DNA of 64,000 bases from NCBI GenBank assembly GCA_030427255.1, contig JAUHWY010000003.1, positions 62,001 to 126,000 of the forward strand. The letters run 5' to 3'. Below the pieces are notes generated by a model, which saw nothing but the letters and a program-made list of their open reading frames with translations, ran no database searches and was not told the origin of the DNA. This DNA comes from Bacteroidia bacterium (GTDB lineage: Bacteria; Bacteroidota; Bacteroidia; CAIKAF01). Shown in pieces: positions 17,639 through 33,566 of this stretch. A program made the position numbers and the translations under genes. Numbering within the stretch: position 1 is the first letter of the stretch; each line of letters opens with the position of its first letter.

Positions 17639-17699
17639 TGCGTAAAAATACGAAATATGCAGCCGCATCCCACAAGGCGTATTTTAAGCAGAGTCTTGT

Positions 17700-17875
17700 G
17701 TTTTTGGGCGGCTATTCCTGCCCTTCCTATTACGCTTCGGCCTCCGGGCGCACAGGGCTAGGCGGTGCGTGGCCCTCCCGAAACATCGGTAGGTCTCCGC
17801 CCGCCAAGCCCTGTGGGCCCGCAGTCCTGCAGGGTAACCGGTCGGTCAGGGCCGCGGGTGCATCTATATTCCCAA
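17700..17875. repeat. GC-rich dyad-symmetric intergenic element
   Basis: CACAGGGCTAGGCGG at 17751-17765 pairs with CCGCCAAGCCCTGTG at 17801-17815 (14 of 15 positions), giving a large stem. The rest is GC-rich with no protein-like frame. It belongs to the same general class as elements at other operon boundaries here. Confidence 0.6.
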
Positions 17876-18154
17876 AAATACCACCGCCGTTTCAAAGCCT
17901 ACCACTTTCGCACACCTAAGCCCAAAACGGAGCAAAACTTCGCTTGATTTAGGCATTCTTTCCCTGAAAGGCCTTAAGGTCAACAATAAAGGAATAGCTG
18001 AAGAACAAAGGCTTAACTATCATAATTTCAATTATTTAAATGAAATTAACAGCTGTTTATTGAAAACCAAAAGGGAAACCGAGGCCAAACAGACCGAAAA
18101 AGCAGGAGTTTTGGGCAATTCAAGGCGCCCATTCCACGTTGTTTTTTCAACAAT

Positions 18155-18189
18155 GTGGTAAAAAGTGGTATAAAGTGGGAGAAGGTGTC
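18155..18189 (+). promoter_or_regulatory. MraZ-box array, four GTGGT/GTGGG/GTGTC boxes at 10-bp period
   Basis: GTGGT (18155), GTGGT (18165), GTGGG (18175) and GTGTC (18185) start exactly 10 bases apart with A-rich 5-base spacers. Studied MraZ proteins bind such direct repeats upstream of their own gene. The array ends 32 bases before the mraZ ATG, so autoregulation of the whole cluster is the likely meaning. Confidence 0.8.
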
Positions 18190-18221
18190 AAATCTTCCTT
18201 ATTTTTACTGCGACAAATAGT

Positions 18222-18695
18222 ATGGCGCATTTTATAGGTGAACATAGCGGTAAGGCAGATGCCAAAGGACGGGTGATGTTCCCCGCCGTTTTCCGGAAGC
18301 AATTGGCCGGGGAAGGGCAGGAGGAATTTGTCATTAACCGTGGCTTTGAAGCCTGCCTCGTGCTCTACCCCCGCAAGGAGTGGGACGCCATCAGCGCCAA
18401 ACTGCAAGCGCTCAACTCGTTTAAAAAAGAAAACCGGCTGTTTATTCGCCAATTCAACAACGGCGCAACTCCGGTTCAACTGGACAGTGCCGGCCGAATT
18501 TTAATTCCCAAAGAGCTCATGCGCTATGCCGGCATTCAATCTGAGCTCGTATTTGCGGCCAACGGCAACAAAATCGAACTCTGGGCCAAAGACCATTATG
18601 AGGAAATGATGCAAATAGATCCTGATGAATTTGCCAACCTCGCCGAAAGGGTCATGGGAAATCTGGATGATACCAACAGAAACGATGCGCCATGA
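18222..18695 (+). CDS. mraZ: Transcriptional regulator MraZ
   Basis: The protein has 157 residues with two SpoVT/AbrB-like swapped-hairpin domains: residues ~5-50 (GEHSGKADAKGRVMFPA) and ~75-125 (TPVQLDSAGRILIPKELM). MraZ forms ring-shaped oligomers that bind direct repeats and control the division and cell-wall cluster. It is the first gene of the dcw operon and overlaps rsmH by four bases. Its presumed operator is the 10-bp-period array directly upstream. Confidence 0.95.
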   Translation: MAHFIGEHSGKADAKGRVMFPAVFRKQLAGEGQEEFVINRGFEACLVLYPRKEWDAISAKLQALNSFKKENRLFIRQFNNGATPVQLDSAGRILIPKELMRYAGIQSELVFAANGNKIELWAKDHYEEMMQIDPDEFANLAERVMGNLDDTNRNDAP

Positions 18696-19609
18696 TGCCG
18701 GAATCTACCTATCATCGACCCGTTCTGGCAAACACTTGCATAGAACATTTGGTGCATAAGCCCAACGGCCGTTATGCCGACCTCACTTTTGGAGGGGGCG
18801 GCCACAGCAAACGCATTCTTGAAGCTCTAGGTCCCGAAGGACGATTGGCAGCCTTTGACCAAGATCCGGATGCCAAAGCCAATGCCCCTAAAAATGATCC
18901 ACGGTTCCGCTTTTTTGATAGCAACTTTAGATTCTTTCACCGATTTCTCAGCATGGAAGGCTGGCTGCCCCTCGATGGCATTCTGGCCGACCTTGGGGTT
19001 TCTTCCCATCAATTAGATGCGCCCGAACGGGGATTCACTTTTCGCCAAAATGCCGCACTCGACATGCGCATGAATCCCCGTCAGGGTACATCTGCAGCTC
19101 AGTGGCTGGCCGAGGTGGAGCCTAAAACCCTTACGGAAGTGCTCCGCAATTACGGCGAAATTAAAACCGCCAAACGCTTAAGCGACCGAATCGTTCAAAC
19201 AAGAGCGGTAGATCCCATTCAACATTCGGACCAACTCAAAGCTCTAGTGCACGGACTTTGTCCACCCGACAAAGAAAACCGCTTCCTAGCACAAGTTTTT
19301 CAAGCCATCCGTATTGCCATTAACGACGAAATGGGGGCGCTTAAAGACATGCTGGAAGCCAGCGCTCAAGCCTTAGCTCCGGGTGGCATGTTGGTGGTTA
19401 TGTCCTACCACTCTTTGGAAGATCGATTGGTAAAACATTACCTGAGAGCAGGCAATTGGGAAGGACGTGTAGAAACCGACCTCTACGGAAATCCCTTAGG
19501 CCCCTTTGACCTTATTACACGTAGCGCCATAAAAGCAGATGCTCAAGAGCAAAAAGAAAATCCCAGATCGCGCTCCGTAAGACTTAGAATTGCCCGAAAA
19601 CGTCCATGA
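18692..19609 (+). CDS. rsmH: 16S rRNA (cytosine-1402-N4)-methyltransferase
   Basis: The 305-residue protein shows YHRPVLANTCIEHL at the start, the SAM-binding loop DLTFGGGGHSKRIL, LGVSSHQLD and the C-terminal VMSYHSLEDRLVKHY. RsmH methylates N4 of C1402 in 16S rRNA near the ribosomal P site. The length is normal. The start ATG overlaps the mraZ stop (ATGA) and its own stop overlaps the next start. An in-frame second ATG directly follows the first, so either could initiate. Confidence 0.95.
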   Translation: MMPESTYHRPVLANTCIEHLVHKPNGRYADLTFGGGGHSKRILEALGPEGRLAAFDQDPDAKANAPKNDPRFRFFDSNFRFFHRFLSMEGWLPLDGILADLGVSSHQLDAPERGFTFRQNAALDMRMNPRQGTSAAQWLAEVEPKTLTEVLRNYGEIKTAKRLSDRIVQTRAVDPIQHSDQLKALVHGLCPPDKENRFLAQVFQAIRIAINDEMGALKDMLEASAQALAPGGMLVVMSYHSLEDRLVKHYLRAGNWEGRVETDLYGNPLGPFDLITRSAIKADAQEQKENPRSRSVRLRIARKRP

Positions 19610-20001
19610 AAAACGCCTACCGAAATACCAGCAAAAAAGGCCAAAAAAAAGCCGACCAAAAGCGCCGTGAACCGGGGGTGTTTTGGCGTGTCTTACAGGG
19701 AGAGTTCTTAGAGAAAAACCTTATTCTAAAACACCTCCCCTTCGTATTCTTCTTGGCATTTCTTGGCATACTATACATCTCCGCCTCCTACTACGCCGTA
19801 AACCGAGTGCAAGACATAGACCGCCTAGAAGAAAGACTCAAAAACCTTAAAGCCGAAAGCATTGACTTGGAAAATCAGCTCATGGAGCAATCCAAGAAAT
19901 TCAACCTTAAAGAACGATTAATAAGCCGCGGCTTAGAAATCCCAAAAACACCTCCACGGGTTTTGGATTTAAGCCCTGACAGCCTGGAAATGATGTATTA
20001 A
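19606..20001 (+). CDS. ftsL: FtsL-like division protein
   Basis: The protein has 131 residues: a basic N-terminal tail rich in Lys and Arg, one membrane helix (residues ~46-68, FVFFLAFLGILYISASYYAV) and a periplasmic coiled coil (DIDRLEERLKNLKAESIDLE). This topology and its position between rsmH and ftsI identify it as the FtsL-like protein that links the FtsW-FtsI synthase to the divisome. The sequence is poorly conserved, so the call depends on context. The N-terminal tail is longer than in Escherichia coli FtsL. It overlaps rsmH by four bases. Confidence 0.85.
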   Translation: MKNAYRNTSKKGQKKADQKRREPGVFWRVLQGEFLEKNLILKHLPFVFFLAFLGILYISASYYAVNRVQDIDRLEERLKNLKAESIDLENQLMEQSKKFNLKERLISRGLEIPKTPPRVLDLSPDSLEMMY

Positions 20002-20003
20002 AC

Positions 20004-22070
20004 ATGAGCAAAAAGGCCCAAATACAACGCAAAATGCAATTCCTGTACCTCTTTATGGTACTGGCAGGAATGGCTGTGTTTGGCCGACTCATCCATATCC
20101 AATTTGTTCAAGGTCCCTACTGGAGAGACAAAGCCGCCTCTCTAACCTCGGTCATGCAAAAAATCGAAGCCGCAAGAGGTAACATCATTGCCGACGATGG
20201 CAGCTATTTGGCTATATCCCTTCCCCAATACGAGCTTAGAATGGACTTGTTGGCTCCGGGCATTTCAGAAGAGCTGTTTAGAGAGGAAATCGATAGTCTA
20301 GCCCTTGGACTAGCAAAAATAACCGGACAAAACAGCTACGGTCAGTTCAAACAAAAGCTTAAAAAAGCACGCGCCGAAGGAAACCGGTATTTATTGGTGG
20401 CCAAAGGACTACGCTTTACTCAAGTTAAAGAAATTCAACAGCTTCCCATCCTTAGCTTAGGGCGCAACAGCGGAGGCTGCATCATAGAATCCTACACTAG
20501 CCGCAAAAAGCCGTACGGTAGTCTGGCAGCCCGCACCATTGGCAAACCTAATGAAGATGGGCACGGAGTTGGAATTGAGCTAGCCTACGACGCTTACCTT
20601 AAAGGCAAAGAAGGGCTACGCCTTATGGAAAAATTAAGCGGAAGCGTTTGGCGCCCGGCAGAATCCGAAAACACCGTGGAGCCCGAAGATGGCTTAGATA
20701 TTGTTTCTACCATTCAACCCGACATCCAAGAAGTAGTGCAATACGAACTGGCCTTTCAATTGGCCAAAAACGATGCCGAACATGGCACCGCTATTGTAAT
20801 GGAAACCAAAACCGGCTACGTACGCGCCATTGTTAATCTAATGCGTGGCAAGGATGGTAATTACTATGAAGCTTACAATTACGCAGTAGGAGAAAGCACA
20901 GAGCCGGGCTCAACCATGAAACTAATGACCATGTTGGCCCTTCTAGAAGATGGTCTTATAAAATTAAGCGATTCTATAGAAACAGGTAATGGCAGATATG
21001 CTTTTTATGACCATGTGTTAAGGGACAGCAAGGAGGGAGGACACGGCACCATCACCATTCAACATGCCTTTGAGGTAAGCTCAAATATTGCCATGGCACG
21101 GCTGGTTTGGGATGCCTACAAAGAACAACCCGATAGGTTTATCCAACATTTTAAACGTTTGGGTCTGGATCAACCCATGGGATTGGAAATCCCCGGAGAA
21201 GGTAAACCCTTGGTAAAATCTCCCGGCCATGAAACCTGGTCCGGCCTTACGCTTCCAATGATGGCCATAGGCTACGAATTACAACACACGCCCCTTCACG
21301 TACTGGCCCTGTACAACGCAATTGCAAATAACGGCACCATGATGAAGCCCCGCTTTGTACAAGAAATTCGAAAGCGGGGTAAAACAGTAGAACGCTTTGA
21401 ACCCGAGGTTTTGAATAAAAAAATCTGCTCCGAGGCCACTCTTAAAGCACTTCAACAACTACTCGAAGGGGTGGTAGAACATGGAACAGCCAAAAATCTG
21501 AACGACCATGCCATACGGATTGCCGGAAAAACCGGAACGGTCCGCATTGCTCAAGGAACCGAAGGCTACCGAGTCGATGGTAACATTGCTTACAAAGCCA
21601 GTTTTTGCGGATACTTTCCGGCAGAAGACCCTAGCTATTCTTGCATGGTCATGGTTAGTAGTCCCAGCAAAGAGGGCTATTACGGCAATGTAGTAGCCGG
21701 ACCCGTTTTCAGGGCAGTTGCCGATCAGGTTTATGCCTCGTCTTACAAAATCAACCGCTACCATTATGGGAAACCGGCAGAACTGGTAAAGAACAGACAA
21801 ATTGCGGCCGCCGCCGGCGCTTACGAAGACTTAAACACCTTAAGCCGTAGCATGCGCTTGCAAATTGCTCGCATTGGAGAATTACCGCAAAGCCCCGAAC
21901 CCATTATGCCAAACCTTATTGGCTTAGGCATGCGAGACGCCGTGTATGCCTGTGCACAAAAAGGATTGATTGCCAAAACCAATGGCCGAGGAAGAGTTGT
22001 GGAACAAAACCCAAAACCGGGCGCTCCGCTTCAAGAATCACAAACCATTTACCTGAAACTATCCCTATGA
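20004..22070 (+). CDS. ftsI: Septal peptidoglycan transpeptidase FtsI (PBP3-like), with PASTA tail
   Basis: The protein has 688 residues. One N-terminal membrane helix is followed by the class B PBP pedestal (RGNIIADDGSYLAISLPQYE) and the transpeptidase domain. Ser303 in PGSTMK is the acyl-enzyme serine; VSSN is the second motif and KTG (Lys509) the third, so the enzyme should be active. A single PASTA-like domain ends the protein (MPNLIGLGMRDAVYACAQKG). It cross-links peptidoglycan at the septum together with FtsW, encoded downstream. The ATG is 2 bases after the ftsL stop. Confidence 0.95.
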   Translation: MSKKAQIQRKMQFLYLFMVLAGMAVFGRLIHIQFVQGPYWRDKAASLTSVMQKIEAARGNIIADDGSYLAISLPQYELRMDLLAPGISEELFREEIDSLALGLAKITGQNSYGQFKQKLKKARAEGNRYLLVAKGLRFTQVKEIQQLPILSLGRNSGGCIIESYTSRKKPYGSLAARTIGKPNEDGHGVGIELAYDAYLKGKEGLRLMEKLSGSVWRPAESENTVEPEDGLDIVSTIQPDIQEVVQYELAFQLAKNDAEHGTAIVMETKTGYVRAIVNLMRGKDGNYYEAYNYAVGESTEPGSTMKLMTMLALLEDGLIKLSDSIETGNGRYAFYDHVLRDSKEGGHGTITIQHAFEVSSNIAMARLVWDAYKEQPDRFIQHFKRLGLDQPMGLEIPGEGKPLVKSPGHETWSGLTLPMMAIGYELQHTPLHVLALYNAIANNGTMMKPRFVQEIRKRGKTVERFEPEVLNKKICSEATLKALQQLLEGVVEHGTAKNLNDHAIRIAGKTGTVRIAQGTEGYRVDGNIAYKASFCGYFPAEDPSYSCMVMVSSPSKEGYYGNVVAGPVFRAVADQVYASSYKINRYHYGKPAELVKNRQIAAAAGAYEDLNTLSRSMRLQIARIGELPQSPEPIMPNLIGLGMRDAVYACAQKGLIAKTNGRGRVVEQNPKPGAPLQESQTIYLKLSL

Positions 22071-23542
22071 AACTGCTGCGCGACATATTATTCAAGGCAG
22101 GCCTGGAAGAGGTGCACGGCTCCACCAATTTGGCCGTGGAACAGCTTAGCGCAGATTCCAGAAACGTTAAAAAAAATGGCCTCTATTGTGCCATACAAGG
22201 ACTCAAAGCCGACGGCCACGACTTTATTGACAAAGCCATAGAAGCAGGAGCTATTGCCATTGTTTGCGAAAAACTGCCCGAACAAAAAGACCCAAAAATC
22301 ACCTATGTCCGAGTAAGAAACTCAAGACAGGCTTGGGCTTGGATGGCTGCAAACTTTTTTGACCATCCCTCCCACAAACTAAAACTTGTAGGCATCACCG
22401 GAACCAATGGAAAAACCTCTGTGGCCACCGGGCTTTATCAGCTCTTTTCGCGCATGGGTTACCAAACAGGACTTATATCTACAGTTGAAAATAAAATTGG
22501 CAACACCTCGGTTCCGGCTACCCACACCACACCCGATGCTTTGGGACTCAACCAACTGTTAAGTCAAATGTTGGCTGCCGGCATAACCCATTGCTTTATG
22601 GAGGTCAGTTCTCATGCCCTAGACCAAGCTAGAGTGGCAGGAATACAATTTGCAGGCGCCATATTCACCAATATAAGTCACGACCATCTAGACTACCACA
22701 AAACCATGGACAACTACATCCGAGCCAAAAAACAGCTCTTCGATATGCTGCCGGAAAATAGCTGGGCCTTGGTAAATGTAGACGATAAGCGTGGGCGAGT
22801 AATGCTCCAAAATTGCAAAGCCCAAAATCAAAAGGGATTTGCCTTAATGCAGGCTACCGACTTCAAAGGAAAAATCATTGAAAACTTGCTGGGAGGACTC
22901 TTTATGTCCTTTAACCAAACCGAAGTGTCTACCCAATTCACTGGTTCATTCAATGCCTATAATTTGTTGGCCATTTTTGGAGCGGCACGGCTACTTGGCC
23001 AAGAGACCCAACATGTGCTTACGACCCTAAGCACCTTGAAACCGCCGCCCGGAAGATTCCAAAGCATTGCAAGTCCTAATGGAGCCGCTGCCATTGTAGA
23101 TTATGCGCATACTCCCGACGCCCTGGAATCGGTGCTGCAAACCTTAAAAGAAACCATGTCAGGACAGGGACGCATCCTTTGTGTAATTGGTTGCGGTGGC
23201 GACCGAGATCCAAGCAAAAGACCAATAATGGGCAAAATTGCTGCCGGACTAAGCCACAAAGCCATTCTCACATCGGACAATCCAAGAAGCGAGGACCCCA
23301 TCAAGATTATTGAGGAAATGCAGGCAGAGCTTACCATTGAAGAAAAAATCAAATGCCTTACCATCCCATCCAGAAAAGAGGCCATTTCTGCAGCCTGCCG
23401 TTTAACAGAACCCGGCGATGTGGTGCTTATTGCGGGTAAAGGCCATGAAACCTACCAAGAAATTAATGGGGAACGCCATCATTTTGACGATGTGGAAGAA
23501 GTTAAACGAGCCTTTGGCTTACTAAACCCAAAGGAGGACTAA
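22067..23542 (+). CDS. murE: UDP-MurNAc-L-Ala-D-Glu:meso-diaminopimelate ligase MurE
   Basis: The protein has 491 residues with the Mur ligase ATP loop [10 protein letters not shown] (residues 109-118), SADSRNV in the N-terminal domain and [10 protein letters not shown] in the C-terminal domain. DNPRSEDP (Asp404-Arg407) is the signature of ligases that add meso-diaminopimelate rather than lysine, which predicts A1-gamma type peptidoglycan as in other Bacteroidota. It overlaps ftsI by four bases. Confidence 0.95.
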
Positions 23543-23543
23543 T

Positions 23544-24767
23544 ATGCTCTACCACCTATTTGATTATTTGAACGACTTAGATTTTCCGGGAGCCGGAGTC
23601 TTTCAATACATCTCTTTTAGGGCAGGGATGGCATTGATCGTTTCTTTGGTAATATCCGCAGTATTAGGTGGGCGCATTATTCGATTCCTACAAAAACAAC
23701 AAGTGGGCGAAGAAGTTCGTGACCTAGGTCTAGCCGGTCAACTGAGCAAAGCAGGAACACCAACCATGGGCGGGCTAATCATTTTGGCGGCCATTCTAAT
23801 ACCGACACTGCTCTTTGCCAAGCTCAACAATATTTATGTGATTCTTATGCTGGGCTCTACCCTAGGTCTTGGCCTTATTGGCTTTTTGGACGATTACATT
23901 AAGGTCTTTAAAAAGAACAAAAAAGGGCTTGCGGGAAAATTCAAAGTGGTAGGACAAGTAGCCATTGGTTTGGTCGTAGGCCTTACATTATATACCCACC
24001 CAGAGGTCACTGTACGGAAATTCGATGGTCCGGTTGCCATTCAAACCGGTGGAGGGGAAGAACAAATCCCCGGATTCAAAGATGAACGGAGTCTTGAAAC
24101 CACCCTACCCTTTGTAAAGAACCACGAATTCAACTATTCAGACTTGCTCAGCTGGATAGGTGAGGACTTCAAGGAATATGGCTGGCTGATTTTCATTCCT
24201 ATTGTGATTTTCATCATTACTGCGGTGTCCAATGGAGCCAACATGACCGACGGCCTAGATGGCTTAGCTACAGGAACATCCGCCATTATTGGAGTGGTAC
24301 TGGCCATTTTTGCTTACGTAAGTGGCAACATTCGCTTTGCAGACTACTTAAACATTATGTACATACCCAATTCCGGAGAATTGGTAGTTTTCTCGTCAGC
24401 ATTTGTAGGTGCTTGTGTAGGCTTCCTTTGGTACAATGCATTTCCTGCCCAAGTTTTTATGGGAGATACAGGCTCTCTTTCCCTCGGAGGAATTATTGCG
24501 GTACTAGCCATTGCCATTCGAAAAGAGTTACTAATCCCAATCTTATGCGGGGTATTCCTTATCGAAAACCTATCGGTCATCTTGCAGGTAGGCTATTTTA
24601 AATATTCAAAAAAACGATGGGGAGAGGGCAAACGCGTATTCCTTATGGCTCCTCTTCACCACCACTACCAGAAAAAAGGATTGCATGAAGCCAAAATTGT
24701 AGCTCGCTTTTGGATTGCAGGCTTGGCTCTTGCTGCACTTACCATTATTACCCTAAAACTACGGTGA
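23544..24767 (+). CDS. mraY: Phospho-MurNAc-pentapeptide translocase MraY
   Basis: The 407-residue integral membrane protein has [10 protein letters not shown], the catalytic [24 protein letters not shown] and [10 protein letters not shown]. It transfers phospho-MurNAc-pentapeptide to undecaprenyl phosphate, forming lipid I. A long insertion between helices (about residues 150-210, [14 protein letters not shown]) is usual in Bacteroidota MraY. The strong AAGGAGG at 23531-23537 ahead of the ATG is notable because most genes here lack one. Its TGA overlaps the murD start. Confidence 0.95.
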
Positions 24768-26122
24768 ATCAAACGATTGACATATTGATTTTGGGCGCCG
24801 GGGAGAGCGGTGTGGGAGCTGCACTTTTGGCTAAAAGGAAAGGTATGTCCTGTCTTGTTTCGGATGCAGGAACTGGTAAAGCGTCCTTTATTCAAGAGTT
24901 GGAGCAGGCCGGTATTGAATATGAAACCGAAGGTCATAAAAAGGCCCTCAAATGTCTCCCAAAAGTACTGGTAAAGAGTCCCGGAATCCCAAACGAATCG
25001 AACATTGTGCAAGCATTTGCGCAAAAAGGGATACCCGTTTGGTCTGAGGTAGAGTTTGCCTTTAGGCAGATGACCAAAGGCAAAATCACAGGCATCACAG
25101 GAACCAACGGCAAAACAACAACCACCCATTTGGTATACCACATCTATAAAAAAGCCGGCTTAGATGTGGCCATGGGTGGGAATGTAGGAACCTCATTTGC
25201 AAGAATTCTTGCTGCTCAAGAGCCAAAAGATCATTACGTTTTGGAATTGAGCAGCTTTCAATTGGATAATATTGAACAGATGCGCATCCATACCGCACTC
25301 TTGCTAAATATTAGTCCCGACCATTTAGACCGATATGGCAACAGCCTGGAGCGCTACGCCGATGCCAAGTTCAACATTTTTAAAAACCAAAAAGCCGATG
25401 ACTTGCGCATTTGGGACGCCAACGACCCATTGCTCATAGAAGGTTACCACCGCAACCATACCAAAGGCCTGGCAGGCAAAGATTTCACATTTGGAAACGA
25501 AGGAACACCGGGAGTAAGTGCCTGGGCAAACCAAACACATATGCACTTAGTAGAAAACACACAAACCTTGGACATGCTCATTTCGGATATGGCGCTCAAA
25601 GGAAAGCACAACATCCGAAATAGCATGGCGGCTGCCTTGGCGGCCCGTGCACAAGACATCCGCAAAGAAACAATCCGAGAGGCACTCTCAGATTTTCAAC
25701 AAATTGAACACAGGCTGGAGTTTGTGGGGAAAGTAAAAGGGATGGATTTCATAAACGACTCTAAAGCCACCAATGTAAATGCTACTTGGTATGCATTGGA
25801 ATGTACGGAAGGTCCCATCATTTGGATTGCAGGTGGCGTGGATAAAGGAAACGATTACTCCAGCCTCCAACCTCTGGTTAAGGAGCGCGTTCGAGCCATT
25901 ATTTGCTTAGGCCTTAACAACGAACCCTTGCGCCAAGCCTTTGCTCATTTGGTACCCGAATTTTCGGAAACAAGCAGCATGATGGAAGCTGTGCGCGCAG
26001 CCTATTATATGGGAAGCAAAAACGATACGGTCTTGCTCTCCCCTGCATGCGCCAGTTTTGACCTCTTTCAAAACTACGAAGATAGAGGCCGGCAATTTAA
26101 ACAAAGCGTACGCGAACTCTAA
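24764..26122 (+). CDS. murD: UDP-MurNAc-L-Ala:D-glutamate ligase MurD
   Basis: The start is GTG at 24764, overlapping the mraY TGA; the reading frame continues further upstream but only as an alternate frame of mraY. The 452 residues begin [20 protein letters not shown], contain the ATP loop [14 protein letters not shown] and the substrate motifs LELSSFQLD and NDSKATN, and end in the Mur C-terminal domain ([18 protein letters not shown]). MurD adds D-glutamate to UDP-MurNAc-L-alanine. The GTG start choice is the only uncertain point. Confidence 0.93.
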
Positions 26123-27303
26123 TGGTACAATTCCTAACGACATACCTTAAAGGCGATAGAGCCATTTGGATATTGATGATTTTGCTATCCATCATATCCT
26201 TGCTCTCGGTATACTCTGCCGCAGGGGCACTCGCCTTTAGGTATCGGGAGGGAAATGCCAGTTATTATTTGATAGAGCGAGCTGTGTTCCTATTGCTCGG
26301 TCTATTGGCCATGTACATGGCCCATAGAATTCCATTTCGTGTGTTTTCAATTTTGGGCGTTTTGGGCCTGTACGCAACCATTCCTTTGCTCTTGCTCACA
26401 TTACTTATGGGATCAAGCATAAACGATGCCTCGCGCTGGCTGCAACTCCCCTTCCTATCGGTGAGTATCCAAACCTCAGACTTGGCTAAACTTAGCCTAT
26501 TGCTATTCCTAGCTCGAAAAATTGGCCAAAGACAAGCTCAAATTACCGATTTCAAACGCGGCTTCCTTCCCTTAGCCATTCCGGTAAGCTTGGTTTGCCT
26601 TCTTATTCTTCCTGCAAACTTCTCCACAGCAGCCATGCTGTTTTTCATCTCAGCCTTACTAATGATTGTAGGAGGAGTGGCACTAAAACATATTTTAGGC
26701 TGGCTAGGTCTGGCCGCGGCATGTTTTGCCTTAATCATTGCCCTCGCTTTTGCAGCCCCTCAACTTTTACCGCGATTAGGAACCTGGAAAGCCCGGGTAG
26801 AAAATTTCTTCTCCGACGATCCGGCAGACAGCTACCAAGTGGAACAAGCAAAAATGTCAATTGCTTCCGGAGGACTCTTGGGAACCGGCCCCGGAAACAA
26901 CCCAAGCAAATACCGATTACCTCAGAGCTACTCCGACTTCATTTATGCCAATATTGTGGGGGAATATGGGCTCTTATTTGGAGGTTTGGTAACCATGCTT
27001 GGCTATTTGGTGTTGCTTTACCGGTCCATAAAAATTGGAAGCCGCACCGAAAGTGCCTTTGGAACGTTTACTGCCTACGGCTTAGGCTTGGCTTTGGTAA
27101 TACAAGCCTTCATAAACATGGCAGTTGCGGTTAACTTACTTCCGGTAACCGGTCAACCTCTGCCTTGGATTTCTATGGGAGGAACTTCTACCATTATTAC
27201 CGGACTTACCATTGGAATTATTTTGAGTATTGGGCGAGGCGAAAAAGTTTCCGGAGCCAACAAAAATCAACCAGCCGAGGAGGGGCAACTCAATCATGCC
27301 TAA
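26122..27303 (+). CDS. ftsW: Septal peptidoglycan polymerase FtsW (SEDS family)
   Basis: The 393-residue protein has about ten membrane helices and the SEDS-family features: a catalytic-loop region with YQVEQAKMSIASGG, GPGNNPSKYRLPQSYSDFIY and the late LPVTGQPLPWISMGGTS. FtsW polymerises lipid II into septal glycan together with FtsI. Its ATG overlaps the murD stop (TAATG) and its 3' end overlaps murG by eight bases. Confidence 0.95.
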   Translation: MVQFLTTYLKGDRAIWILMILLSIISLLSVYSAAGALAFRYREGNASYYLIERAVFLLLGLLAMYMAHRIPFRVFSILGVLGLYATIPLLLLTLLMGSSINDASRWLQLPFLSVSIQTSDLAKLSLLLFLARKIGQRQAQITDFKRGFLPLAIPVSLVCLLILPANFSTAAMLFFISALLMIVGGVALKHILGWLGLAAACFALIIALAFAAPQLLPRLGTWKARVENFFSDDPADSYQVEQAKMSIASGGLLGTGPGNNPSKYRLPQSYSDFIYANIVGEYGLLFGGLVTMLGYLVLLYRSIKIGSRTESAFGTFTAYGLGLALVIQAFINMAVAVNLLPVTGQPLPWISMGGTSTIITGLTIGIILSIGRGEKVSGANKNQPAEEGQLNHA

Positions 27304-28387
27304 GCGGTATCTCATAAGTGGAGGTGGAACAGGGGGACACATTTTCCCTGCAATTGCCATTGGCCAAGCCCTACAAGAGCTTTCACCCGGAGCCGAACTA
27401 CACTTTATTGGTGCCTTGGGCCGAATGGAAATGGAAAAGATACCGCAAGCAGGTTACACCATTACCGGTTTACCCATCCGAGGCATAAACCGCTCCAAAC
27501 CTTGGAAAAACCTGAGCTTGCCCTTGGCCTTATGGAAATCTTACCGAATGGCTCTGGCTACCCTAAAGACTTTTAGGCCGGATGCGGCCATTGGTGTTGG
27601 CGGATATGCTTCAGCAGCAATGGGCTTGGCCGCATCTAAAGCCGGTATACCACTGATTCTCCAAGAGCAAAATGCCTTTCCCGGGAAAACAAACCGTTGG
27701 CTTTCACGCAGAGCCAAAGCTATTTGTGTGGCACACCCCGGAATGGAAAAGTATTTTGAAGCTTCAAAATTGCATCTCACAGGGAACCCTGTGCGCAAAG
27801 CTTTTGAAACAATGGGTGCATCCAAGCAGGAGGCAAAAGCCCAATTGGGCTTAGATTCGTCCAAGCCCTTGGTATTCCTAACCGGTGGTAGCCTTGGCGC
27901 CCAAGCCTTAAACCATGCCCTATACTCCTGCTTACCAAGCCTTCAAGCCATGGGAGTTCAAGTGCTTTGGCAAACCGGTAGCCGATCATTTACCGATTGG
28001 TCGCAAAAAGTAACACCCGCTCCCGGTTTGCAATTGGCAGATTTTATTCCGGATATGGCCTTAGCCTTCCGTGCTGCAGACCTAGTGATTTCAAGGGCAG
28101 GTGCTATTGCCTTGGCAGAAATGGCCATGACACAAACCCCTTCACTTTTGGTCCCTCTGCCGGGTGCCGCAGAAGACCACCAAAGCTTCAATGCCAAAAG
28201 CATAGAGGACCGCGGAGGTGCTTTCATGTTGCCTCAAAACCAATTGAACGATCGCCTTTTGCCCACCCTTAAAGAGCTTTTACAAGATCAGGAAAAACTA
28301 GACAGCATGCGGAAAGCACTTGGTTCCATAAAGCAGCCAAATGCCGCTCAAAACATTGCCAAAATTATTCAAGCGCATCAACTATGA
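27296..28387 (+). CDS. murG: Lipid II synthase MurG (GlcNAc transferase)
   Basis: The chosen start, ATG at 27296, gives 363 residues beginning PKRYLISGGGTGGHIFPA, the correct N-terminal glycine-rich loop. The upstream extension would lie inside ftsW. GAGGAGGGG nearby provides a ribosome binding site. Further motifs are LQEQNAFPGKTNR, LTGNPVRK, LTGGSLGAQALN and SRAGAIALAEM in the UDP-GlcNAc binding half. MurG makes lipid II from lipid I on the inner membrane face. Confidence 0.95.
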   Translation: MPKRYLISGGGTGGHIFPAIAIGQALQELSPGAELHFIGALGRMEMEKIPQAGYTITGLPIRGINRSKPWKNLSLPLALWKSYRMALATLKTFRPDAAIGVGGYASAAMGLAASKAGIPLILQEQNAFPGKTNRWLSRRAKAICVAHPGMEKYFEASKLHLTGNPVRKAFETMGASKQEAKAQLGLDSSKPLVFLTGGSLGAQALNHALYSCLPSLQAMGVQVLWQTGSRSFTDWSQKVTPAPGLQLADFIPDMALAFRAADLVISRAGAIALAEMAMTQTPSLLVPLPGAAEDHQSFNAKSIEDRGGAFMLPQNQLNDRLLPTLKELLQDQEKLDSMRKALGSIKQPNAAQNIAKIIQAHQL

Positions 28388-29757
28388 CACCGCCCAAAGG
28401 AACATACCTGTTTTTTGTAGGCATCGGAGGTGCCGGGATGAGTGCATTGGCGGCTTGGTTGCATGGACAAGGCTATGCGGTGGCAGGTTATGACCGTATT
28501 CAGGGGCCGCTTTGCCGCCACTTGGAAGACCTCGGAATTCCGGTGATTTATGACAATCAGAACGAGGAAGTACCCGAAGCATGGAATCATGCCGATTGCT
28601 GGTGTATTTACACCCCGGCAATAGCCAAGAACAACCCACTGTTGGCCCATTTTGAGCGCCTAGGGGCACCTATGAAAAAACGCGCCGTGCTTTTGGCAGA
28701 GTGTTTGGCCCCTTTCAAAGTATTGGCTGTTGCAGGAACGCATGGAAAAACCACTACCTCTTGCATGTTGGCTTGGCTAATGGACCAAACCATAGGCCAA
28801 ACTTCTGCTGTATTGGGCGGTGTTTCTGCCAATTTTGACCGGAATTACCTTTCAACCGACAAGGCCACTTTTGCGGTAACGGAAGCCGATGAATTTGACC
28901 GCTCTTTCCTCCAGTTGCACCCTTGGATTTCGGTATTGACCAGCATGGATGCCGACCATTTAGATATTTACGGAGACGATCAAGAAATCCATAAGGCCTT
29001 TCAACAATTCGCTTTGCAAACCCGTCCCGACGGATTACTCATTGCCCGACACGATTTGAGCATCCCTCCCCTAGAGGCCAAAATCCGCAGGTATGGTATT
29101 GAAAGAGGCTATTATGCTGCCACCAAACTAAAAAGCGAAAAAGGGCGCATGCGCTTTGACCTTAGCATTGACGGAAAAAAGGCCCGGCGCATTTACCTTC
29201 CTATGTTGGGTATTCACAATGTGGAGAATGCCACTGCAGCACTTGCCGTTGGTATGGAAGCCAATGCGAAACTTCAAGATTTGGCAGAAGCCCTCGAAGC
29301 CTTTAAAGGAGTTGGTAGACGCATGCACCTGAGGTTCCAAAGTCCTCGAATGGTGTACATCGACGATTATGCACACCATCCCCAAGAATTAGAAGCCGTT
29401 ATTTCTTCGGTTCGAGCTGCTTATCCGGATCGCTTTGTGACCGGAATATTTCAACCTCATTTATTCTCTAGAACCCGTGACTTCGCCGATGGATTCAGAG
29501 AAAGTCTGGCAAAACTGGATGCCCTTTGGCTCATGGATATTTACCCGGCACGCGAGGAACCCATAGAGGGAATTAACAGCACTTGGCTACTCGAAGGGGT
29601 ATCTCTCAAACACAAAATGATGGTGCAGCCCGAAGAAGTATTGGAAGCCTTGGAACATAAGCTGGTGGAACCCGGAGTATTGCTAAGCTTAGGTGCAGGA
29701 GATATTGACCGACTTACCCGACCCATTACGGATTGGTTAAACAAAGAAAAGCTATGA
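28384..29757 (+). CDS. murC: UDP-N-acetylmuramate:L-alanine ligase MurC
   Basis: The protein has 457 residues. It starts with the nucleotide-binding GIGGAGMSALAAWL, has the ATP loop AGTHGKTTTSCML, E-A-D-E-F-D-R-S-F and YIDDYAHHPQELEAV in the C-terminal region. MurC starts the peptide stem by joining L-alanine to UDP-MurNAc. It overlaps murG and ftsQ by four bases each, consistent with tight coupling. The length is typical. Confidence 0.95.
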   Translation: MTPPKGTYLFFVGIGGAGMSALAAWLHGQGYAVAGYDRIQGPLCRHLEDLGIPVIYDNQNEEVPEAWNHADCWCIYTPAIAKNNPLLAHFERLGAPMKKRAVLLAECLAPFKVLAVAGTHGKTTTSCMLAWLMDQTIGQTSAVLGGVSANFDRNYLSTDKATFAVTEADEFDRSFLQLHPWISVLTSMDADHLDIYGDDQEIHKAFQQFALQTRPDGLLIARHDLSIPPLEAKIRRYGIERGYYAATKLKSEKGRMRFDLSIDGKKARRIYLPMLGIHNVENATAALAVGMEANAKLQDLAEALEAFKGVGRRMHLRFQSPRMVYIDDYAHHPQELEAVISSVRAAYPDRFVTGIFQPHLFSRTRDFADGFRESLAKLDALWLMDIYPAREEPIEGINSTWLLEGVSLKHKMMVQPEEVLEALEHKLVEPGVLLSLGAGDIDRLTRPITDWLNKEKL

Positions 29758-30554
29758 GCAGCAAAGTTACATATCGGTTGCTTCGCAGTCTTAAGCTTTT
29801 GCTTCCTCTTTTGGTAGGCATGGGACTTTTCACCTTGCATGCACGCGTACACTTGCAAGAATCCGAACCCATTCAGTGGCATTGGGAACAGCCTAAAACC
29901 CCCTCCTTAGTGAGCACAGAAGACCTGATGCCGCTAGCTGAAAGTGCATTGGCTTCGGAAGGCACTCCGCTTAATTTGGACGAGCTCGAAAAAAGCCTCG
30001 AAACGCACCCCGCAGTTAAAAACTGCGAAGCATGGAAAACGGCAGACGGAAAACTCCATATTCAAATCAATGAACGGGTGCCCGTTCTAAGACTAGTGCA
30101 TAGCAGCGGCAGACACCGCTATATAGATAAAGAGAACTACGCGTTACCGGCCTTTTTAGGAGCTCCTTATCGTGTGCCGATTGTAACCGGCGCTTTACCA
30201 TTGGCCCCGGAAGGCCGCTATTTAGGACAAGACAGCTTGTTTGCACGCTTAAGCCGTTTGCAGCATTGCATTGCACAAGACAGCTTTTGGCTGGCCATGA
30301 CCGAACAAATTGATGTGTTGCCCGATACTCAATTTGTATTGATTCCAAAACTGGGACAACACGAAGTATGGCTGGGAAGCATTGAACACATGCCAGGCAA
30401 ACTTCTAAAAATGAAACACTTCTACACATTCGGCTTACATGAAGAAGGCTGGACAGAATATAAATACATCGACGCCCGATTCAAAGGGCAAGTAGTTTGT
30501 CGGAAAAGCTTACCGACAAAGGGCTCACAAGAACTTGAAATGAACCACGAATAA
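29754..30554 (+). CDS. ftsQ: FtsQ-like division protein
   Basis: The start at ATG 29754 overlaps the murC stop. The 266 residues comprise a short cytoplasmic tail, one membrane helix (LLLPLLVGMGLFTLHA) and a periplasmic part with a POTRA-like region (LNLDELEKSLETHPAVKN, GKLHIQINERVPVLRL). FtsQ bridges early and late division proteins. The sequence is diverged from proteobacterial FtsQ; the location between murC and ftsA and the topology support the call. Confidence 0.85.
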   Translation: MSSKVTYRLLRSLKLLLPLLVGMGLFTLHARVHLQESEPIQWHWEQPKTPSLVSTEDLMPLAESALASEGTPLNLDELEKSLETHPAVKNCEAWKTADGKLHIQINERVPVLRLVHSSGRHRYIDKENYALPAFLGAPYRVPIVTGALPLAPEGRYLGQDSLFARLSRLQHCIAQDSFWLAMTEQIDVLPDTQFVLIPKLGQHEVWLGSIEHMPGKLLKMKHFYTFGLHEEGWTEYKYIDARFKGQVVCRKSLPTKGSQELEMNHE

Positions 30555-30566
30555 ACGCAAAGGGCT

Positions 30567-31844
30567 ATGGAAAACAATCAATTAACAGTTGGACTCGACA
30601 TTGGAACCACAAAAATTGTGGCCATGGTTGGCCGTAGAAACGAACACGGCAAAATCGAGATCCTAGGGGCCGGAAAAAGCCCATCTACCGGCGTACAAAG
30701 AGGCATGGTAACCAATATTGTGCACACCGTAGAAGCTATAGAAAAGGCAGTATCCGAAGCCAGAGAGTCATCCAACGTGGATATACAAGTTGTAAATGTG
30801 GGTATTGCCGGGCAGCACATTAGAAGCTACCAACATCGGGGAGTACGCATGCGCGACCAAGACGCAGATATCATTCAACAAGAAGATATTGAGCATTTGA
30901 TGTCCGAAATGTATAAGCTGGCCATGAAACCAGGCGAACAAATCATTTCGGTTATTCCTCAGGAATATATTGTGGACGACATTCCCAACATTAAAGACCC
31001 TATTGGAATGATGGGCGCCCGTTTGGAAGCAAATTTCCACATCATTACCGGTCAAATGAACCCCGCACGCAACATTTACCGGTGCGTTGAAGATGCCGGC
31101 CTAAGCGTAGACCAGTTGATTCTGGAACCCATAGCCTCTTCGGTAGCCGTATTAACCAAAGAAGAAAAAGAAGCCGGGGTAGCACTCATTGACATCGGTG
31201 GCGGCACCACCGACATTGCCATTTTCCAAGACGGAATCATACGCCATACAGCAGTGATTCCCTTTGGCGGCAACATCATTACCGAAGATATTGTGGCCGG
31301 CTGCAACATTATTCGCTCCTATGCCGAATTGCTAAAAACACGGCATGGCTACGCCATTTCTATGCCCCAAATGGTAAACAGAATCGTTACCGTTCCGGGA
31401 ATTCAGGGGCGGCCTGCCCGTGAAATCAGCGTAGCCAATTTGGCCAGCATTATTCGGGCACGCATGGAGGAAATTTTGGACTATGCCTTGGCCGAAATTG
31501 AAAGCTCCGGCTTCCGCGAAAAACTAAGTGCAGGCGTGGTGCTCACCGGCGGTGGTTCGCAACTCAGACATGTGAAACAGCTTACGGAATTCGTGACCGG
31601 ACTAGACGCCCGAATTGGTCTTCCCGACAGCCATATTGCCGGAAATAGCAAAAACAGCCTCGATAACCCCATTTTCTCAACAGCTGTTGGACTCATGATG
31701 ATGGGCTTTCAGGAAGTGCAGCGCAAGGAGCGCGACAACAACCGCGTGGTTACCACCAAAAAACCAAAAAACAACCGTTTGGCAGAACTCATAAAAAATC
31801 AATTTGGACGCATTTTTCAAGAAGACGACGATGCGTTGGAATAA
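30567..31844 (+). CDS. ftsA: Cell division protein FtsA
   Basis: The 425-residue actin-like ATPase has VGLDIGTTKIVAMVG (phosphate 1), a 1C domain region near residues 85-165, ALIDIGGGTTDIAIFQDG (phosphate 2) and VVLTGGGSQL (adenosine motif). The C-terminus (KNNRLAELIKNQFGRIFQED) contains an amphipathic helix that would attach to the membrane. FtsA tethers FtsZ. It is 12 bases downstream of ftsQ but separated from ftsZ by ~195 bases. Confidence 0.95.
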   Translation: MENNQLTVGLDIGTTKIVAMVGRRNEHGKIEILGAGKSPSTGVQRGMVTNIVHTVEAIEKAVSEARESSNVDIQVVNVGIAGQHIRSYQHRGVRMRDQDADIIQQEDIEHLMSEMYKLAMKPGEQIISVIPQEYIVDDIPNIKDPIGMMGARLEANFHIITGQMNPARNIYRCVEDAGLSVDQLILEPIASSVAVLTKEEKEAGVALIDIGGGTTDIAIFQDGIIRHTAVIPFGGNIITEDIVAGCNIIRSYAELLKTRHGYAISMPQMVNRIVTVPGIQGRPAREISVANLASIIRARMEEILDYALAEIESSGFREKLSAGVVLTGGGSQLRHVKQLTEFVTGLDARIGLPDSHIAGNSKNSLDNPIFSTAVGLMMMGFQEVQRKERDNNRVVTTKKPKNNRLAELIKNQFGRIFQEDDDALE

Positions 31845-31859
31845 TAAACACCAAAGAAT

Positions 31860-32022
31860 CACAGCGCGCCGGATGCGGTGAAAAGCCCGGAGGAACGCGC
31901 GGATGCTGTGGTGTGGAGGGCAGGAGCGGAACGCAGAGAGCTCCCTGGCCAACCACCACAGCCCGCGGGGACCGAGGACTTGAAGCCGGCAGCCGGATTA
32001 CGCGCCCAAAACAAAATAAACC
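31860..32022. repeat. GC-rich element between ftsA and ftsZ
   Basis: The spacer carries a GC-rich unit sharing a skeleton with the one at 47740-47902: GGATG...GTGAAAAGCCCGGA at the left and GAGGACTTG...CCGG...GCGC-CCAAAA at the right, with divergent middles. Internal dyads (CTGTGGTG with CACCACAG) can fold. A frame open through it runs into ftsZ, but the codons have no protein resemblance. It may influence transcription between ftsA and ftsZ. Confidence 0.65.
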
Positions 32023-32039
32023 AAGCAAAACCAAGCAAT

Positions 32040-33566
32040 ATGTCAGATAATCAAACACCTAAAGACGAGCTTCTGGACTTTGAAATGCCCAGAAAAGACG
32101 AACAATCCATCATTAAAGTGATTGGCGTAGGCGGTGGGGGTTCCAATGCGGTAAACCACATGTACCGTCAAGGTATTCAAGGCGTGGATTTTATCGTGTG
32201 CAACACCGACAACCAGGCCCTAAACAGCAGTCCTGTGCCCATTAAACTGCAATTGGGCCAAGATTTGACCGAAGGCCGCGGTGCCGGGTCAATTCCGGAA
32301 GTGGGCAAAAAGGCCGCTCTAGAAAGCCTCGAAGAGGTGCGCCAGCACCTATCCAACAGCACCAAAATGGTGTTTATTACGGCCGGAATGGGCGGTGGCA
32401 CCGGAACCGGAGCTGCGCCGGTAATTGCCAAAATGGCCAAGGAAATGGATGTGCTTACCGTGGGTATTGTAACCATTCCCTTTACCTTTGAAGGCCGCAA
32501 ACGACGTAACTTTGCCGCCGAAGGCTTGGACGAATTGCGTCAGTACGTGGACACCCTCTTGGTGATTTCCAACGACCGTTTGCGTGAAATGTACGGCAAC
32601 CTGAGCCTTACCAACGCCTTTGGAAAAGCCGACGACATCCTCACTACCGCAGCTAAAGGCATTGCCGAAATAATTACCGTTCCCGGATACATCAATGTGG
32701 ATTTCGAAGATGTGAAAACGGTAATGAAAGGCGGTGGTTCGGCCATTATGGGAGCTGCCATTTGCGAAGGCGAAAACCGCGCCTTGCGTGCGGCCGAAGA
32801 AGTCTTGGCCTCGCCTTTGCTCGACGACTCAGACATCCGCGGTGCTCAGCATATTTTGCTCTACATTTCCTATGGAAACGCCGAATTGCAACTGGACGAA
32901 GTGACCGACATCACCGAATTCATTCAGGAAGAGGCCGGACAAACAGCCAACCTAATTTGGGGTACCGGCCACGACGAAAACCTTGGAGATGCCGTTTGCG
33001 TTACCCTAATCGCTACAGGCTTTAATGCTACCGCTGAGCAAGAGGAGCAGACCGAGCGTTTGCAACTGAGCAAGCAAAAGGAGCTCAACAACGATACCAT
33101 TCGCCAAGAAATTGAGCAAGAACAATTCCACGGCAAAGGGCACCTGGAAACCGAAGAAGAAAAAGAAGAAACACCTCAAGCTCAAAGCTCTGAAAATGAG
33201 GTGCTCAAAATGGATCTATTTGCTGAGGAAAGTCCGGAAGAACCCGAAGCGAAAGCCGAGGATTTGTTTGCCGAGCCTCCGGCTTCTGAAAACCAGACAA
33301 ATCGCGACCGGAACTACAGCGCCACCGACATCAAAGCCCGAGCGGAACAGCGCATTGCCGCCTTGCGCAGCATAACCAGCAAGTTGCAACAGCCCGGAAA
33401 ATTGGAAGAGTTGGAACAAAAGCCGGCTTTTGCACGCAAGCAGGTACAGTTGGACCAAACGCCAACGAGCCGTGACCGGGCTTCAAGCAATTGGAGCTTG
33501 GGAAAAGACGGAGAAGAGGTAAAACTTCGGGAGAACAACTCTTTTCTACACGACAGCGTAGACTAA
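32040..33566 (+). CDS. ftsZ: Cell division GTPase FtsZ
   Basis: The start at ATG 32040 gives 508 residues. An in-frame extension to 31878 would translate the GC-rich spacer and is rejected. Residues 27-36 (VIGVGGGGSN) and the tubulin signature GGGTGTGAAP (118-127) define the GTP site; NTDNQAL and FEGRKRRNFA are also typical. After the ~330-residue core comes a long acidic Glu/Lys-rich linker, and the tail reads NNSFLHDSVD, as in flavobacterial FtsZ. It forms the Z-ring. It closes the dcw cluster. Confidence 0.96.
   Translation: MSDNQTPKDELLDFEMPRKDEQSIIKVIGVGGGGSNAVNHMYRQGIQGVDFIVCNTDNQALNSSPVPIKLQLGQDLTEGRGAGSIPEVGKKAALESLEEVRQHLSNSTKMVFITAGMGGGTGTGAAPVIAKMAKEMDVLTVGIVTIPFTFEGRKRRNFAAEGLDELRQYVDTLLVISNDRLREMYGNLSLTNAFGKADDILTTAAKGIAEIITVPGYINVDFEDVKTVMKGGGSAIMGAAICEGENRALRAAEEVLASPLLDDSDIRGAQHILLYISYGNAELQLDEVTDITEFIQEEAGQTANLIWGTGHDENLGDAVCVTLIATGFNATAEQEEQTERLQLSKQKELNNDTIRQEIEQEQFHGKGHLETEEEKEETPQAQSSENEVLKMDLFAEESPEEPEAKAEDLFAEPPASENQTNRDRNYSATDIKARAEQRIAALRSITSKLQQPGKLEELEQKPAFARKQVQLDQTPTSRDRASSNWSLGKDGEEVKLRENNSFLHDSVD

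Follow-up and report, generated by a model that had tools for sequence, protein, structure and literature searches.

Background

In Mollicutes the MraZ site is given as (AAAGTGKN3)3, with K for G or T, in the accessible part of PMC5282649, and as AAAGTG[T/G] in that of PMC8475190; the M. genitalium chromosome has a single such site. Two structure entries, 9sz7 and 9r4j, are by their titles M. genitalium MraZ-promoter complexes, and 9sz7 is titled 'MraZ in complex with 4 box promoter'. In B. cenocepacia, four 7-nt repeats separated by 3-nt spacers lie downstream of the -10 element and overlap the start site, and a mobility shift showed binding of MraZ to a fragment with these repeats (PMC7761207, accessible part). 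In E. coli K-12 (NC_000913) the units GTGGG, GTGGGG and GTGGG follow each other at a 10-bp period right before mraZ; they begin 13 bp past the first base of TAAACT, the -10 hexamer, and lie around the start site. Both the E. coli and the M. genitalium MraZ are described as repressors, and deletion of mraZ in M. genitalium leads to upregulation of the other dcw genes (PMC8475190, accessible part).

It is already known that MraZ boxes are located before mraZ, recur every 10 bp and may form arrays of four. A search of the open-licence PMC literature for MraZ boxes in Bacteroidota returned no paper, which is weak evidence of absence.

The array and the protein encoded next to it

The window, i.e. 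the whole analysed stretch of 64,000 nucleotides from a genome of the class Bacteroidia (contig JAUHWY010000003.1), carries the following features around the start of the dcw cluster. The matrix behind the box scores was derived from 277 boxes of the window's class.

18152..18158, plus strand: MraZ box 1, AATGTGG (GTGGT at 18155-18159), read directly, matrix score 15.3
18162..18168, plus strand: MraZ box 2, AAAGTGG (GTGGT at 18165-18169), read directly, matrix score 14.0
18172..18178, plus strand: MraZ box 3, AAAGTGG (GTGGG at 18175-18179), read directly, matrix score 13.9
18182..18188, plus strand: MraZ box 4, degenerate, AAGGTGT (GTGTC at 18185-18189), read directly, matrix score 5.6
18222..18695, plus strand: mraZ, 157 aa, presumed cognate binding protein with two MraZ/AbrB-like halves (profile matches, AlphaFold2 model)
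18692..33566, plus strand: dcw cluster 3' of mraZ (profile matches, gene order)

A preliminary description of the window had reported GTGGT, GTGGT, GTGGG and GTGTC at strict 10-bp spacing ahead of the dcw cluster. The units indeed start at 18155, 18165, 18175 and 18185, exactly 10 bp apart and on the same strand as mraZ, and the last one ends at 18189, before the mraZ ATG at 18222. Its count of four boxes holds for the phase, which all four keep, but has to be qualified for the fourth, which is weak by matrix score (5.6 versus 15.3, 14.0 and 13.9). The nearest relative, G004, also keeps a fourth box in phase. All units conform to (AAAGTGKN3)n, the published site, with box 4 as the weak one; the array thus consists of direct GTGK repeats with an A-rich flank and a 10-bp period, as expected of an MraZ operator, with box 4 degenerate.

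Among the described sites, that of Mollicutes is closest in sequence, sharing the A-rich flank, the GTGK core and the 10-bp period (PMC5282649, PMC8475190, accessible parts); like the window's array in its genome, it is unique in the M. genitalium chromosome. The E. coli array shares the period and the place right before mraZ, and has GGGGT in the fourth slot where the window has GTGTC; the four repeats with 3-nt spacers of B. cenocepacia are likewise similar (PMC7761207, accessible part).

The gene behind the array heads the dcw cluster on the same strand, as had been noted, and its product exceeds the cut-offs of TIGR00242 (120.7 bits, cut-off 98.35) and PF02381 (109.9 bits, cut-off 23; two MraZ domains), while it scores under the own cut-offs of the narrower PRK00326 models among the matches listed. 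The AlphaFold2 model of the monomer (pLDDT 89.7) matches solved MraZ structures at Z 19.9-18.4 (among them 1n0e, 19.9; 9sz7, 18.8; 9r4j, 18.4), and the next unrelated row has 4.4. Identity to the M. genitalium MraZ of 9sz7 and 9r4j is about 30%; the fold and a four-box promoter are shared. Two DXXXR motifs are present, and at least two occur in each of 23 aligned MraZ (23/23); the motif reportedly, in work by Eraso from 2014, has a role in DNA binding by MraZ. Close behind mraZ follow rsmH, an ftsL-like gene, a PBP transpeptidase, murE, mraY, murD, an ftsW-like gene (241.7 bits, under the 337.5 cut-off), murG, murC, an ORF, ftsA and ftsZ. The ORF, in the position of ftsQ, had no family match in the profile search.

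Conservation in Bacteroidota and linkage to mraZ

If the array were a chance repeat, shuffled sequence should reproduce it. When the 553-bp intergenic region was shuffled 10,000 times with its dinucleotides preserved, four in-phase GTGK, the real count, never arose; the best in-phase count was 0 (463 shuffles), 1 (9,220), 2 (315) or 3 (2). In the 3.2-Mb genome the pattern GTGK-N6-GTGK-N6-GTGK is found at the array only, as two overlapping matches, and its reversed control matches three times in the same genome; AAGTGK-N4-AAGTGK has a single place, which is the array.

We surveyed the 300 bp before mraZ in 181 genomes of the phylum out of about 291 mraZ-bearing ones found. The sample comprises all 55 of the first mraZ-bearing set and 126 more, mainly one per genus; G191, which gave no locus, was left out, and G150 has only 136 bp upstream. 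Of the 181 genomes, 171 carry two or more GTGK in 10-bp phase before mraZ, 104 three or more and 15 four, at shuffle expectations of 3.5%, 0.01% and none, respectively. Other periods from 7 to 15 bp give a pair in at most 46/181, at period 15, which catches the array's own 30-bp distance. Within the window's class every genome has at least two in-phase boxes (92/92, all 44 sampled families) and 78/92 have at least three, and in the other classes 79/89 have at least two; all ten genomes lacking an in-phase pair belong to those other classes. The comparison of upstream regions among relatives that the preliminary description had proposed as a check thus bears it out (171/181 in the phylum, 92/92 in the class), and a clear array in a Bacteroidota-type genome is present as it stated, yet is the rule of the phylum (171/181) rather than an isolated case. 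An origin by chance, for which no supporting point was found, is already refuted by the 171/181 conservation and the 0/10,000 shuffles with four in phase, and we give it practically no credence.

In the box consensus of the window's class the GTG core is invariant, which is partly built in since GTG was required for selection, and the flanking A's reach 60-85%. This pattern bears on intrinsic DNA curvature, i.e. A-tracts phased by one helical turn that bend the promoter, with the GTG cores as mere spacers. The A-rich spacers are in phase, as curvature would have it; however, it is the GTG core that is invariant (with the reservation on selection just given), the period is 10 and not 10.5, and the array is gone in 15/15 mraZ-less genomes, which makes this explanation very improbable. 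Still less probable is a G-quadruplex, as claimed for the mraZ leader of S. aureus (PMC11796246, accessible part): G runs are repeated directly before mraZ, but the array holds a single GGG run, and in 62% of the class a T follows the first GTGG, so that conservation extends to the 10-bp phase but not to long G-runs.

The boxes are tied to mraZ. Nineteen genomes have no mraZ match; rsmH was matched in 15 of them and not in 4, and the 300 bp ahead of rsmH contain no in-phase pair of boxes in any of the 15 (0/15). As rsmH need not head an operon in mraZ-less genomes, this control is supportive, not final. A strict two-box pattern has 35 places in 28 genomes among 60 relatives, 32 at mraZ and 3 elsewhere, and its reversed control has 3 matches. 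The three places away from mraZ were not accepted as an MraZ regulon: two are inside ORFs and one is about 97 bp before a response-regulator ORF.

Gene absence is concentrated in particular lineages: mraZ is missing in 9/9 sampled genomes of family f63 and in 2/2 of f50, which is a lineage-specific loss. A Bacteroidota-type mraZ with 70% identity to that of the window stands in a record labelled Candidatus Competibacteraceae (L041), probably a mislabelled or mixed bin.

Because the array is conserved (171/181) and absent without mraZ (0/15), and because the encoded MraZ matches solved MraZ, it is, as judged from sequence, an ordinary, phylum-wide MraZ operator and no oddity.

Promoter geometry and sign of regulation

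Two further elements flank the boxes.

18144..18152, plus strand: conserved 5' flank TTTTCAACA (TTWTYAACA), begins 11 bp upstream of the box 1 GTGG
18200..18207, plus strand: predicted -7 element TATTTTTA (TAnnTTTR), begins 15 bp past the last box start (class-wide spacing)

In Flavobacterium the sigma-A -7 element is TAnnTTTG and covers -12 to -5 (PMC9723704, PMC6847099, accessible parts). In the window's class TAnnTTTR lies 14-16 bp past the start of the last box in 60/92 genomes (shuffle mean 1.2, maximum 4/92 in 200 rounds) and is missing there in 32/92; a looser form is in place in 69/92, is shifted by one slot in another 10 and is lacking in 13. Since the element occupies 18200-18207, the start site of the window would fall near 18212 and the boxes with their A-flanks at about -60 to -24. 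The window therefore does not have the layout of the E. coli/Burkholderia type, in which boxes are downstream of the -10 (for B. cenocepacia, according to the accessible part of PMC7761207); its boxes are upstream of the -7.

In the other classes TAnnTTTR does not recur at that place past the last box. Instead, TTGAY is found 35-75 bp before the last box in 53/79, of which 47 then have TAnnnT at a normal spacer; in these 47 promoters the first box begins 6-24 bp past the start of the -10 in 43 and 14 bp before it in 4. Because the boxes precede the -7 in the window's class and follow the -10 in the other classes, in E. coli and in B. cenocepacia, the operator is retained, with the promoter on its opposite side in the window's class. 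A scan for sigma-70 promoters and terminators gave nothing at the array; it returned two weak minus-strand matches, at a shuffle mean of 0.9.

In family f35 (e.g., G089, G169, G204, G306) the boxes of the upstream regions read GTGG..GTGTTATTTTGTGT and no -7 element follows the array; a TAnnTTGY-like element may be located inside it.

That the array is an MraZ operator is near-certain to us; the sequences themselves show that the boxes exist, are conserved, are absent together with mraZ, keep a fixed distance to TAnnTTTR and are nearly unique in the genome. The fuller statement, that MraZ uses this operator to repress its own dcw operon, is very probable. We propose for binding, sign, start site and occlusion that MraZ, which is multimeric in solved structures, would bind as an oligomer to the three strong and the one weak GTGK box along one face of the DNA, in analogy to the Mycoplasma complexes (9r4j and 9sz7, by entry title), and that the bound array would directly precede the -7 of the mraZ/dcw promoter. 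MraZ on about -60 to -24 would keep RNA polymerase off the promoter and thereby repress its own operon mraZ-rsmH-ftsL-...-ftsZ, by which expression of the division genes would be held steady.

The same operator might also act with the opposite or a dual sign, where MraZ recruits or positions RNA polymerase, or activates at low dose and represses at high dose. Activation is conceivable since the window's class has its boxes ahead of the -7 element, at about -60 to -24 and not downstream of the -10 as in E. coli and the other classes. Moreover, no TTG -33 element is found at a fixed place upstream of the TA in class members (at most 7/60 at one offset), although a weak -33 is usual in Flavobacterium promoters anyway (PMC6847099, accessible part). 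MraZ overexpression in M. gallisepticum was accompanied by more FtsZ, so the sign may vary among lineages; in E. coli and M. genitalium, however, MraZ represses (PMC8475190, accessible part, for all three). Overlap of the array with the entire -24 to -57 zone is also hard to square with simultaneous binding of polymerase. Taken together, we consider an activating or dual role unlikely and prefer autorepression.

Other elements in the upstream region

TTWTYAACA precedes the first box at offset -11 in 36/92 and at -12 in 11/92 members of the window's class (47/92 together), and at neither of the two offsets in the other classes (0/79). Judging from these positions, the element is locked to the array in the window's class. 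The DnaA box consensus is TTATNCACA. TTWTYAACA was rejected as a DnaA box, as it departs from this consensus at the sixth position, and only 8/92 carry TTWTNCACA on the sense strand. An extra GTGG stands 21-22 bp before the first box in 10/92 class genomes, eight of them in family f46 (17 sampled; e.g., G224, G260, G298); sometimes one more follows 11 bp further upstream. We interpret the extra boxes as a longer array interrupted by the TTWTYAACA element.

On the opposite strand, 13/92 class genomes (shuffle 0.4) and 12/89 genomes of other classes (shuffle 0.1) carry another MraZ-like array, of two boxes. It lies 137-160 bp before the ATG in, e.g., L022 (G039), L023 (G017) and L025 (G034), and at about 250-270 bp in other classes (e.g., G288, G213, G097). 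In G039, G017, G028 and G024 the divergent gene is by eye an alpha/beta hydrolase, with an EngB-like GTPase next in G039. The opposite-strand array might take part in looping or serve as a divergent operator.

In the window itself, a comparable pair is weak.

17915..17873, minus strand: weak divergent pair, GTGT 17915-17912 and GTGG 17905-17902 (scores -7.1 and 14.6), then TATTTTTG 17880-17873

The pair faces a 120-aa ORF and a 1237-aa histidine kinase. A divergent MraZ-controlled promoter at this place is not claimed because the first box scores -7.1. Between mraZ and the divergent genes there is also a dispersed repeat of about 155 bp (17697-17855) with a long inverted repeat (17739-17827) and 24 matches in its own genome, about seven of them long. 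The only Rfam matches, to mir-4776 inside the repeat at 17744-17822, are spurious (35.7 and 34 versus a gathering score of 97).

Implications

Only the shifted promoter geometry was not met in the open-licence literature searched. One tentative explanation, which we regard as possible though rather doubtful, is that when the sigma factor of Bacteroidia changed its preference from TTGACA/TATAAT-like elements to TAnnTTTG, the core of the mraZ promoter moved across a standing MraZ array. An operator that elsewhere blocks polymerase at or after the start site would now act at about -60 to -24, at the step of polymerase binding, and could even activate.

The MraZ operator emerges as a phylum-wide feature of dcw control in Bacteroidota, and the window's class offers a testable case of an operator that would have been kept while the surrounding promoter was rebuilt for a different sigma factor.
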